Shown in pieces: positions 6,617 through 10,292 of a DNA stretch of 21,282 nucleotides. The DNA comes from a virus: positions 1-21,282 of the IMG/VR virus record IMGVR_UViG_3300007229_000117; one strand, given 5' to 3'. The first letter of the stretch is position 1. Every line of letters starts with the position of its first letter. The translations under genes and the position numbers were made by a program. The notes under the pieces were generated by a model, which saw only the letters and a program-made list of their open reading frames with translations, did not search any database and had not been told where the DNA came from.

Positions 6617-6997
6617 ATGACAAATGAAGCTTTACAAAACACTGTATCAGATGCCGACCTTATCATTGAGCTAGCGGCTCAAAATGAGGATTTAAAAAGC
6701 CGTCTTGAGCACGCGCAACACGTTGCGGGGTTACAATCCGACCAGCTGGACCAGTTCGGGGATGCTATAATGGGCCTTATCGGTGACAAGGTAGAAGCAT
6801 TGGCGGAAAGCGTTGCCTGCAAATACTCCGAACAAGCGCTAGAAGATTTTGAGATTGGAAATTATGAATATGAAATTGGCGAGATGATAGACGACCGGTT
6901 GCCGGAAGGCTTGGATGATGAAAGCCGTTCAGACGATTTGAAAGCCGCCATTAAAGAAGTTCTAGCCGGTGCAACCGTCAGTCTGGATTTAGAATAA
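6617..6997 (+). CDS. Acidic coiled-coil protein (126 aa)
   Basis: The ATG at 6617 follows CTACGGGAAAG (6598-6608). The product is very acidic. Residues 10-50 have the heptad-like pattern of a coiled coil (LIIELAAQNEDLKSRLEHAQ), a second helix covers 50-75, and the C-terminal half is a string of acidic helices (EDFEIGNYEYEIGEMIDDRL). One Cys. There is no signal or membrane segment. It could be a multimeric decoy or adaptor protein. It is followed by its own terminator at 7025, so it is the third single-gene unit of the cassette. No family recognised. Confidence 0.72.
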   Translation: MTNEALQNTVSDADLIIELAAQNEDLKSRLEHAQHVAGLQSDQLDQFGDAIMGLIGDKVEALAESVACKYSEQALEDFEIGNYEYEIGEMIDDRLPEGLDDESRSDDLKAAIKEVLAGATVSLDLE

Positions 6998-7162: not shown

Positions 7163-7230
7163 TGAACCGTAAACCACAATATCTTGTGTGGCTGCAAATC
7201 GTTTTAAACACATCATCTTGATTTGAGGAC

Positions 7231-7317
7231 CGGCAACCGGCAACTGGCAACTGGCAACTGGCAACGGGCACCGGCAACCGGCAACCGGCACCAGATGCGC
7301 GGGCAACCGGCAACCGG
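7231..7317. repeat. 7-bp tandem repeat array ([C/T]GGCAAC)
   Basis: The heptamers run head to tail: CGGCAAC at 7231 and 7238, TGGCAAC at 7245, 7252 and 7259, a 6-base GGGCAC at 7266, CGGCAAC at 7272 and 7279, a 6-base CGGCAC at 7286, an insert CAGATGCGCGG (7292-7302), a partial GCAAC at 7303, and CGGCAAC at 7308. That is about ten full or near-full units. The period is not a multiple of three and the unit lengths vary, so it is not coding. Confidence 0.92.
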
Positions 7318-7512
7318 ACCTTTCACCATGGCGCATGAACTATGAATGCCGGGCTAACGTATCCGGAAAAATGCCGGGTCCCTTCCCATATCGGGTCAAA
7401 AACCTAGGAAAATTCAGCAAAAATCGGCAAAAACGCGCCGCGGCCCGCGCCGTGCCTAGCGGGAGCATGGGCCATGTTTCTCTCAAATATTCATGTGAAA
7501 AACGGTATAGAA

Positions 7513-7528
7513 TGTTTCACGTGAAACA
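7513..7528. promoter_or_regulatory. parS: Perfect parS-type centromere site (ParB-binding palindrome)
   Basis: TGTTTCACGTGAAACA is a perfect 16-bp palindrome identical to the consensus chromosomal parS site on which ParB/Spo0J loads as a CTP-dependent clamp. Its central CACGTG, flanking TTT/AAA and outer TG/CA are all present. No parA or parB gene is in the window, so a trans-acting ParB from the host, or from elsewhere in the phage, would be needed. It lies about 90 bp before the large terminase start. A TATAGAAT run (7506-7513) touches its left edge and could be part of a promoter. Confidence 0.85.
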
Positions 7529-7577
7529 CTGCCTATTTATTAGGCAGATATGAGGTCTTGTTAACTGTCTAATAAAT
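7529..7577. other. Overlapping, competing inverted repeats next to parS
   Basis: CTGCCTA / TAGGCAG (7529-7535 and 7541-7547) form a perfect 7-bp stem that starts at the base after parS. The right part, ATTTATTAGGCAG (7535-7547), can also pair with CTGTCTAATAAAT (7565-7577), 13 positions with one G-T, across a 17-nt loop. Only one of the two can form. Confidence 0.65.
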
Positions 7578-7608
7578 GTGCATATTTGTGCATATATTTT
7601 GTGCAATT
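7577..7608. repeat. Three TGTGCA-type direct repeats before the large terminase
   Basis: TGTGCATAT at 7577-7585 and 7587-7595, and TGTGCAATT at 7600-7608, with start-to-start spacings of 10 and 13 bp. They are about one helical turn apart, as expected for side-by-side protein sites. They end 12 bp before the ATG at 7621. Confidence 0.65.
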
Positions 7609-7620
7609 TAGGGTCCCCCG

Positions 7621-9069
7621 ATGGATGGTCAGACAGACAAAGAACTAAAGCTTCAACTTCGCCTCGCGCAGTTAGAAAAGAATGAAGCTTGTAAAGATGA
7701 GTTTTTAATTTTTGTAAAAAATATGTGGCCTGAGTTTATCGCAGGAAGGCATCATAAAATTATTGCGGACAAGTTACAGCGGGTCGCGAGCGGCGAGCTA
7801 AAGCGTTTGATTATCAATATGGCTCCGCGGCACACGAAGTCTGAGTTTGCTTCTTTCTTGTTTCCTGCGTGGATGATGGGTAAGAATCCAAAGATGAAGA
7901 TTATTCAGGCAACGCACACTACCGAGCTTGCTGTAAACTTTGGACGAAAGACAAAGAACTTAATTGATAGCGATGACTACAAAGACATATTCCCGGAAGT
8001 TCGTTTGGCTGCTGACAGTAAAGCGTCGGGACGGTGGGACACCGCGTCTGGTGGAATGTACTATGCCGTTGGCGTTGGATCGAACTTGGCGGGTCGTGGT
8101 GGTGATTTAATTATTATTGATGACCCGCACTCGGAGCAGACCGCGATGTCCGCGAACGGCTTTGATGATGCGTGGGATTGGTACACTGGGGGCCCCCGGC
8201 AGAGACTTCAGCCGGGTGGTTCGATTGTTTTGGTTCAGACGAGGTGGTCTGAGAAGGATATGACGGGCCAGCTTTTGAAGGCCATGTCTAAAGATCCATT
8301 AGCGGATCAGTGGGAGGTTGTGGAGCTTCCTGCTATTTTTGAGGATGACACGCCGTGTTGGCCTGAGTTTTGGTCAATGGAGGATTTAACCGCGGTCAAA
8401 GCCTCTATCCCTCCCAGCAAATGGAACGCTCAGTATCAGCAGAATCCGACGGGCGAAGAGAACGCCATCATTCGCCGTGAGTGGTGGAACAAGTGGGAGC
8501 AGGAAAAAATCCCTAATCTTGAATTTGTAATTCAGAGTTACGATACGGCGTTTAGTAGGAAGGAGACCGCTGACTATTCTGCGATTACAACGTGGGGTGT
8601 TTTTCGTCCAGAGGAGATTGGGGGTCCCCCGGCTTTAATTCTTTTGGACAGTCAGAAGGGTCGGTGGGACTTTCCGGAGTTGAAGGAAAAGGCGTTAGAG
8701 CAGTACACTTACTGGGACCCCGACACTGTAATCGTAGAAGCCAAAGCGTCAGGGACCCCTTTGACTCACGAACTACGGAACATGGGCATACCTGTTGTTA
8801 ACTTTACGCCGAGTAAAGGTAATGATAAGGTAACGAGGGTTCATTCGGTATCGCCACTTTTTGAGGCTGGAATGGTTTGGGCCCCAGACACTACGTTTGC
8901 GGACGAGTTAATCGAAGAGGTAGCGGCGTTCCCTAATGGGGAGTATGACGACTTGGTTGATAGCATGACACAGGCTTTGATGCGATATCGGCAAGGCAAC
9001 TTCGTACAGCTACCAACAGATGACTGGGACGAAGAAGAAAGTTATGGTAAGATACACGCCTATTACTAA
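7621..9069 (+). CDS. terL: Terminase large subunit (ATPase and nuclease)
   Basis: A 482-residue packaging motor. The ATPase domain has a variant Walker A at residues 67-75 (MAPRHTKSE), Walker B LIIIDD at 163-168 and the coupling motif VLVQTRW at 203-209. The RNase H-like nuclease domain has D308 in QSYDTAFS, E373 in TVIVEAKASG and D444/D447 in YDDLVDS. All catalytic residues expected for the family are present and the length is normal. It docks on the portal (10375) and cuts and pumps DNA using the small subunit (2717). The ribosome site AGGG (7610-7613) is weak, which may keep its level low. It opens the late operon. Confidence 0.95.
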   Translation: MDGQTDKELKLQLRLAQLEKNEACKDEFLIFVKNMWPEFIAGRHHKIIADKLQRVASGELKRLIINMAPRHTKSEFASFLFPAWMMGKNPKMKIIQATHTTELAVNFGRKTKNLIDSDDYKDIFPEVRLAADSKASGRWDTASGGMYYAVGVGSNLAGRGGDLIIIDDPHSEQTAMSANGFDDAWDWYTGGPRQRLQPGGSIVLVQTRWSEKDMTGQLLKAMSKDPLADQWEVVELPAIFEDDTPCWPEFWSMEDLTAVKASIPPSKWNAQYQQNPTGEENAIIRREWWNKWEQEKIPNLEFVIQSYDTAFSRKETADYSAITTWGVFRPEEIGGPPALILLDSQKGRWDFPELKEKALEQYTYWDPDTVIVEAKASGTPLTHELRNMGIPVVNFTPSKGNDKVTRVHSVSPLFEAGMVWAPDTTFADELIEEVAAFPNGEYDDLVDSMTQALMRYRQGNFVQLPTDDWDEEESYGKIHAYY

Positions 9070-9083
9070 CAGAAAGCGGGCAC

Positions 9084-10292
9084 ATGGCTGATTCAGCGGT
9101 AAATCTTGGAATGGGTGGTTCTTCTCGCGAAGGTTTGGGAGAATTTCTAGATTATTTGCGGACTAACAGACCTGTGTACAAGGAGGGCGACGAGCGCCCG
9201 TACAAGTATTACAGCGACGACTTAATGGTTCCCGAGCAAAAAAGTAGCACGTTCGCCCAAAGGTATGAGTACACCGCGGACCGCGCATCTCCGTATGCGG
9301 GCATGGCTAACTCTCTGTATGATATAGAAGCCGAGGACATGCTGCCGCTTCTTGAGGATGGCAGCGTAACATCCAATTCTATTTATGGTAAAAGCGGAAA
9401 TAACGTACCGTCTTACGTAGAAATATCTCCGGACGGTTCGTTCACGGAAACGCCAATAGGTTTTGCCGACGGCGGAGGAGTGGACCCTCTAGCGGGGGTT
9501 AGCAACGATGACAAGCGCCGCATCTTGCGGATTGGCAACAACAACGTAGCCGACCTTGTTGATAATGATTATAAAATTTATACAATTCTGACAGACCGTC
9601 AGAAAAAAGGTCTCAGAAACTTTGCTGAGTTTGAGGACGGCGGTGAGGTTCCAATAGAAGAGGCGGGTATTATGTCCGCGCTCCTCGACCCACGGATTGA
9701 TTTACCGGACAGGGATTATCAGGACATGGTCCGCGCTTCGGGAAGAGAAGGCAGCGAGGGTTCTTCGATTTATTATTCAGAAGGGTCCCCGACGTTTGAG
9801 CAAGTGTTGGAAACAAAATACGGGTATCCGGACGACGTTGACCGCGGAGAGTTTTACAACACCTCTGAGGCTATGCGGGCAGAACGCCCTCGGCACGACA
9901 TGCCTACCTATCAAGAGTTAGAGGACGCTAGGGCTCACGCACTAATGTCCGCGGAACTTGCACAAGACCTTGGCCCGAATACTGCTGAAAAAGTAGGTGG
10001 TTTGGGGGAGATGTTTGACCGTTACATGCCCGTTCTTGGCACAGCTACGGATGCGGATGTTGTTATGGATAAGCGAAATAACGCTTTTGGCGCTAATTTG
10101 TTACGCAAGGCTGGGGTTCAGGCTAGTCCGCAAGAAATCACAAAGATGGTAGACCAAGCGGTGTTTGACCAGCTAGACGTAGTTCTTGGTAGGGCCCCCG
10201 GAGAGCGGAGATTTAAGTCTCCTGAAAAAGGTATAGATATCTTTTTTCCTCGGGATAAGCAGGGCTTCTTTGATATCAACAGGTACGATTGA
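9084..10292 (+). CDS. Hypothetical 402-aa acidic protein between terminase and portal
   Basis: The ATG at 9084 follows AAAGCGGG (9073-9080). The N-terminus is MADSAVNLGMGG, whose SAVNLG-x-G recurs in the small basic protein at 20408. Two short Gly motifs, GFADGGGV (126-133) and EFEDGGEV (182-189), match motifs in the basic proteins at the right end. Residues about 275-345 look helical and more conserved in style (QELEDARAHALMSAELAQDL, LGEMFDRYMPVLGTATDADV). The rest is acidic and low in hydrophobic content. There are no Cys and no membrane segments. Its position suggests a virion or head-assembly protein; I recall proteins of this kind next to the portal in marine phages, without a known function. 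Confidence 0.75.
   Translation: MADSAVNLGMGGSSREGLGEFLDYLRTNRPVYKEGDERPYKYYSDDLMVPEQKSSTFAQRYEYTADRASPYAGMANSLYDIEAEDMLPLLEDGSVTSNSIYGKSGNNVPSYVEISPDGSFTETPIGFADGGGVDPLAGVSNDDKRRILRIGNNNVADLVDNDYKIYTILTDRQKKGLRNFAEFEDGGEVPIEEAGIMSALLDPRIDLPDRDYQDMVRASGREGSEGSSIYYSEGSPTFEQVLETKYGYPDDVDRGEFYNTSEAMRAERPRHDMPTYQELEDARAHALMSAELAQDLGPNTAEKVGGLGEMFDRYMPVLGTATDADVVMDKRNNAFGANLLRKAGVQASPQEITKMVDQAVFDQLDVVLGRAPGERRFKSPEKGIDIFFPRDKQGFFDINRYD

Follow-up and report, generated by a model that had tools for sequence, protein, structure and literature searches.

An exact chromosomal-type parS site upstream of the terminase gene in a group of marine phages in which no ParA or ParB was found

The ParB-parS system is the commonest bacterial centromere. 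Phage-plasmids such as P1 and N15, together with some mycobacteriophages, encode their own ParA and ParB. The locus described here resembles the phage-plasmids in that parS lies on a phage genome, but whereas they carry their own parABS, none was found here. The site shares an identical 16 bp with the chromosomal parS of Caulobacter and Maricaulis, although it is located on a phage genome, away from parAB and gid genes.

The closest described case is that of Bacillus phage phi29 and its relatives; the host protein Spo0J is reported to carry phi29 DNA into the spore (Meijer et al., 2005, as described in PMC9437464). We found that the phi29 genome contains four parS sites with one mismatch (TGTTCCACGTGAAACA), at least some of them within genes, and no ParB_N domain. 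Like phi29, the present group comprises lytic phages that have parS without ParA or ParB, and it therefore fits the phi29 type, defined as a host-type parS without the phage's own ParB, ParA or integrase, with the proviso that the host is unknown and the host type of the site is inferred. Unlike phi29, which depends on sporulation and Spo0A, these are marine phages with no sign of a sporulating host, and they carry one exact, non-coding site rather than four copies of a variant. SGI1, an integrative mobile element without par genes, copies the parS of the IncC plasmid, binds plasmid ParB in trans and is stabilised (PMC10954446), and is a second precedent, after phi29, for the theft of a partition system. 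SGI1 uses a plasmid ParB and expels the plasmid (PMC10954446), whereas the virus here would use the ParB of the host chromosome. A search of the open-licence literature turned up no description of parS in these phages.

The window, that is, the whole stretch of DNA analysed, is the 21,282-bp IMG/VR virus record IMGVR_UViG_3300007229_000117. The features around the site are as follows.

Positions 7227-7317, no strand assigned: GC-rich iteron-like direct repeats (CCGGCAACCGGCAACTGG...).
Positions 7469-7509, no strand assigned: conserved box (GGGCCATGTTTCTCTCAAATATTCATGTGAAAAACGGTATA) directly upstream of parS, retained even in the clade that lacks parS here; function unknown.
Positions 7513-7528, no strand assigned: parS (TGTTTCACGTGAAACA), a perfect 16-bp palindrome with 0 mismatches to the chromosomal consensus.
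Positions 7529-7547, no strand assigned: perfect hairpin (CTGCCTA-TTTAT-TAGGCAG) abutting parS on its 3' side.
Positions 7558-7586, plus strand: weak candidate late promoter (TTGTTA-N17-CATATT), read from the sequence and its relatives and tentative.
Positions 7621-9069, plus strand: terL, large terminase subunit (phrog_38, E 2e-109; 62% to Pelagibacter phage HTVC027P).

The 16-bp sequence is present once in the window without mismatch, and 0.11 matches with up to three mismatches are expected from shuffles. It lies within a non-coding block of approximately 620 bp between an ORF at 6617-6997 and terL, which is the first gene of the late (packaging and head) block. The original prediction of an exact chromosomal-consensus parS in a non-coding block before terL, accompanied by repeats and a hairpin, was borne out in each of these parts. 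Ranked by TerL identity (58-63%), the closest isolates are 023Pt_psg01, Pelagibacter phage HTVC027P and DSL-LC04. Across parS and 60 bp on either side, any given reading frame is open in at most one of 58 related loci, which argues that the site is not a by-product of coding in this group. Nor does it have the setting of a chromosomal parS, beside parAB and close to the origin, since the record is viral and ParA and ParB were not found.

The flanking elements were compared with those of relatives. The strongly conserved 41-bp box at 7469-7509 holds TGTTTCTC and GTGAAAAA, which resemble two parS half-sites about 12 bp apart. The outer stem pair of the hairpin is C-G in the window and T-A in relatives, a compensatory change, and the hairpin is missing along with parS in the clade L014-L025. 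The candidate promoter falls under the promoter-scan threshold and stays at terL where parS has been lost. A CtrA operator (TTAA-N7-TTAA) read by eye near this promoter was rejected because relatives do not conserve it. At the place of the iteron-like repeats, which are a possible origin or packaging region, the repeat unit differs in every relative examined. The motif GGG(G/T)CCCC is over-represented in the window (5 matches versus 0.76 expected; positions include 7611-7618, 8189-8196, 8622-8629 and 9783-9790), and almost every relative has a copy immediately ahead of the start of terL.

Relatives were collected by TerL search of IMG/VR, which gave 80 and, after a second search, 92. Upstream of terL, an exact parS is found in 71 of the 92 and a one-mismatch parS in a further three; among the remaining 18, ten have a contig end or too little upstream sequence, and about eight truly lack a site near terL. 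The condition that was to refute the original prediction, absence of the site from close relatives at this locus, did not hold. Its place before terL is the usual one, but the site is not essential to the family: it is missing at terL in the clade L014-L025 and in L258, and no exact parS was found in the pelagiphage relatives. L021 showed no parS in 11 kb. When similar sequences were removed, the relatives holding the site yielded 33 non-redundant upstream regions, in which all 16 parS columns are invariant (one haplotype). In the same regions, the majority of 16-bp windows outside the vicinity of parS show 9-29 haplotypes, and the mean difference at four-fold degenerate sites of TerL is 0.515. 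The 1.04 Mb of related loci contain none of the 24 palindromes that are one step from parS, so selection acts on the letters of parS and not on symmetry alone. A palindrome kept only for its structure, such as a terminator, was likewise rejected, because parS has no compensatory variants whereas the neighbouring hairpin does vary. Across these loci, 300 palindromes with shuffled half-sites gave one match in total versus 78 parS loci, in agreement with the earlier estimate of far less than one chance match per window, and chance was rejected by control palindromes in related loci, viral contigs and isolate phages.

The earlier reading that no ParA or ParB is encoded in the window was upheld and can be extended to the relatives. 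Domain searches of 11 long relatives of up to 57 kb detected neither ParB_N (PF02195) nor AAA_31/ParA (PF13614), and no tyrosine integrase (PF00589) was detected in 12 records; control genomes were positive in the searches for all three. Serine integrases were outside the search, a very divergent ParB could escape detection by profile, and many contigs are fragments. Within these limits, the phages qualify neither as autonomous parABS elements, which would have their own ParA and ParB, nor as temperate integrating phages as judged by a tyrosine integrase. The 57.5-kb relative G003 (L218) has a lytic-type gene set, with DNA polymerase A, UvrD and SNF2 helicases, and primase. Its early region also contains a Pfam match to HlyC-type acyltransferases (E 3e-16) and two Sigma70 region 4 proteins.

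On the host side, a sample of 142 alphaproteobacterial genomes included 100 with exact parS. One Maricaulis MAG has it next to gidA, within the gidA/gidB-parA-parB region, and the parS duplex used with Caulobacter ParB has the identical 16-bp core (PMC8367383). A public genome collection places two phage contigs of this group, L204 and L205, in Verrucomicrobia MAGs; L206 lies within a Maricaulis MAG. The Verrucomicrobia MAGs contain no exact parS beyond the phage contig, so this binning is probably unreliable, and MAG membership was rejected as a guide to the host. That the phage parS is of its host's own type therefore remains an inference, as the phage host has not been identified.

We consider it probable that the site is a working parS kept by selection, that host ParB is loaded on it and that the phage genome is handled as if it belonged to the chromosome. 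What is observed is the parS sequence and how strictly it is conserved, together with its single copy per genome, its relocation and the lack of the phages' own ParA, ParB and integrase; binding of ParB to the phage parS is inferred, and we regard it as very likely even though there are no binding data and the host is unknown. The original suggestion that the phage uses the centromere code of its host without par genes of its own is well supported, short of binding data, by conservation, turnover of position, absence of ParA and ParB, and enrichment over control palindromes. In the mechanism we propose, a phage captured or re-evolved parS, and selection would have retained it. Host chromosomal ParB would recognise the site, close with CTP and slide onto flanking phage DNA. 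Host ParA, SMC and nucleoid anchoring could then position and condense the phage genome like a piece of the chromosome. Where lysis is delayed in starved or slow-growing cells, the genome might then be passed to daughter cells, and parS could act as an aid to lytic deferment or pseudolysogeny, comparable to the way in which phi29 exploits Spo0J. A recent report that lytic phages persist in bacterial assemblies in carrier-like states (PMC12768965) suggests an ecological use for such a site. Segregation or positioning as the benefit is itself only inferred, and we hold it at slightly less than even odds. Sequence alone cannot choose among condensation or positioning, a decoy and plasmid-like maintenance.

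The alternative that survives best, although we think it unlikely, is a transcriptional switch, in which host ParB spreading from parS over the late promoter would keep terL and the late operon repressed in the early phase until replication titrates ParB and frees the late genes, as a copy-number timer. In its usual place, some 90-120 bp ahead of terL, the site lies where early genes give way to late ones, next to conserved boxes, the hairpin and a sequence resembling a promoter. In the L080 and L055 clades, the element and the promoter-like part have shifted as one. In the main clade parS is always close to the late operon, so a regulatory role is still possible. A terL operator, however, would have a fixed place at the terL promoter in all members, and this is not the case. 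In L014-L025 the block of parS and hairpin is gone at terL while neighbouring elements, including the promoter part, remain, and in L025 an exact parS is found 6.7 kb away in a different context, before another gene. The wider TerL/portal family has parS in about 20 contexts unrelated to one another. Its position ranges from 33 bp ahead of terL to over 5 kb past the start of the gene, and in many members the site is thousands of bp away from terL or on its downstream side. This set (TerL identity 52-94%) came from an unbiased scan for the site; having been chosen by the site itself, it reveals the contexts in which parS occurs but not how often. Gain or relocation on repeated occasions, with unrelated flanks, is more in keeping with a genome-level, centromere-like element than with an operator of terL.

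The same independence of position counts against a decoy as the main role, a reading to which we give still less weight. Here parS would titrate host ParB off the chromosome and stall segregation and division of the infected cell. Copies of the site do multiply with phage replication, and some other phages have arrays of five exact sites, but a high copy number would be needed before any effect, and each of 11 relatives of 31-57 kb has exactly one parS with up to two mismatches allowed, where more copies would favour a decoy. The five-site arrays (L097, 2657-3444; L124, 10535-11462) have unrelated flanks and span about 0.8-0.9 kb; both contigs have a distant TerL (29-30%), and no ParB domain was found in them.

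The site also occurs in other viruses. At least 120 loci in viral contigs contain exact parS, and a palindrome of the same composition was not found. Searches by phmmer with Maricaulis proteins detected ParA or ParB at none of 119 viral parS loci, without a positive control; in a firmer test, ParB_N was present in 4 of 50 whole viral parS contigs, 3 of them above the cut-off. Among isolate phages, an 18-bp query centred on parS matched 315 records, including Listeria, Microbacterium, Arthrobacter, Gordonia, Bacillus, Lactobacillus and Ruegeria phages, against 0 for a control palindrome. ParB_N was absent from 9 of 10 isolate phages checked, and Roseobacter phage DSS3P8, whose host is Ruegeria pomeroyi DSS-3, has three exact parS and no ParB. 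The claim that such use would be unusual is corrected by these records and by the account of phi29, which show that it has precedents; the apparent parS trick of these phages resembles the one reported for phi29 but is far more widespread.

It is very unlikely that the site is an operator for a phage-encoded DNA-binding protein with the same 16-bp sequence by coincidence. Such an operator would suit a palindrome that adjoins other conserved elements, and these phages do encode small HTH and sigma-like proteins, but the probability that an 8-bp half-site matches that of parS by accident is about 1.5e-5, the same sequence occurs in unrelated phages of alphaproteobacteria, actinobacteria and firmicutes, and phi29 has four copies of its variant. 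Chance, coding or assembly artefact, for which one might cite a pelagiphage near-match that is probably a coding coincidence, is already refuted for this group and retains almost no credence, because the site is non-coding, does not vary among dozens of contigs that were assembled independently and has no counterpart among control palindromes. The near-match in question (CGTTTCACGTGAAACA; L201 at 3873, corresponding to HTVC027P 16412, and L279, L303, L305, L307 and L315) lies inside an ORF resembling a VRR-NUC-like nuclease gene, where it encodes ...YAFHVKH... and its variants are synonymous, which is why we interpret it in this way.

Recruitment of host ParB-CTP clamps via a stolen exact parS could be a general, overlooked phage strategy in non-sporulating bacteria that evolved many times and serves to organise the viral genome or hand it on while infection proceeds or lysis is deferred, a proposal whose chances we see as evenly balanced. 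Isolates identified in this analysis, such as DSS3P8 on R. pomeroyi DSS-3, would allow a direct test. The finding of exact parS without partition genes in abundant marine phages and in hundreds of isolate records suggests that viruses routinely use the segregation machinery of their hosts, and would join the field of ParB-CTP clamps to those of pseudolysogeny and carrier states.
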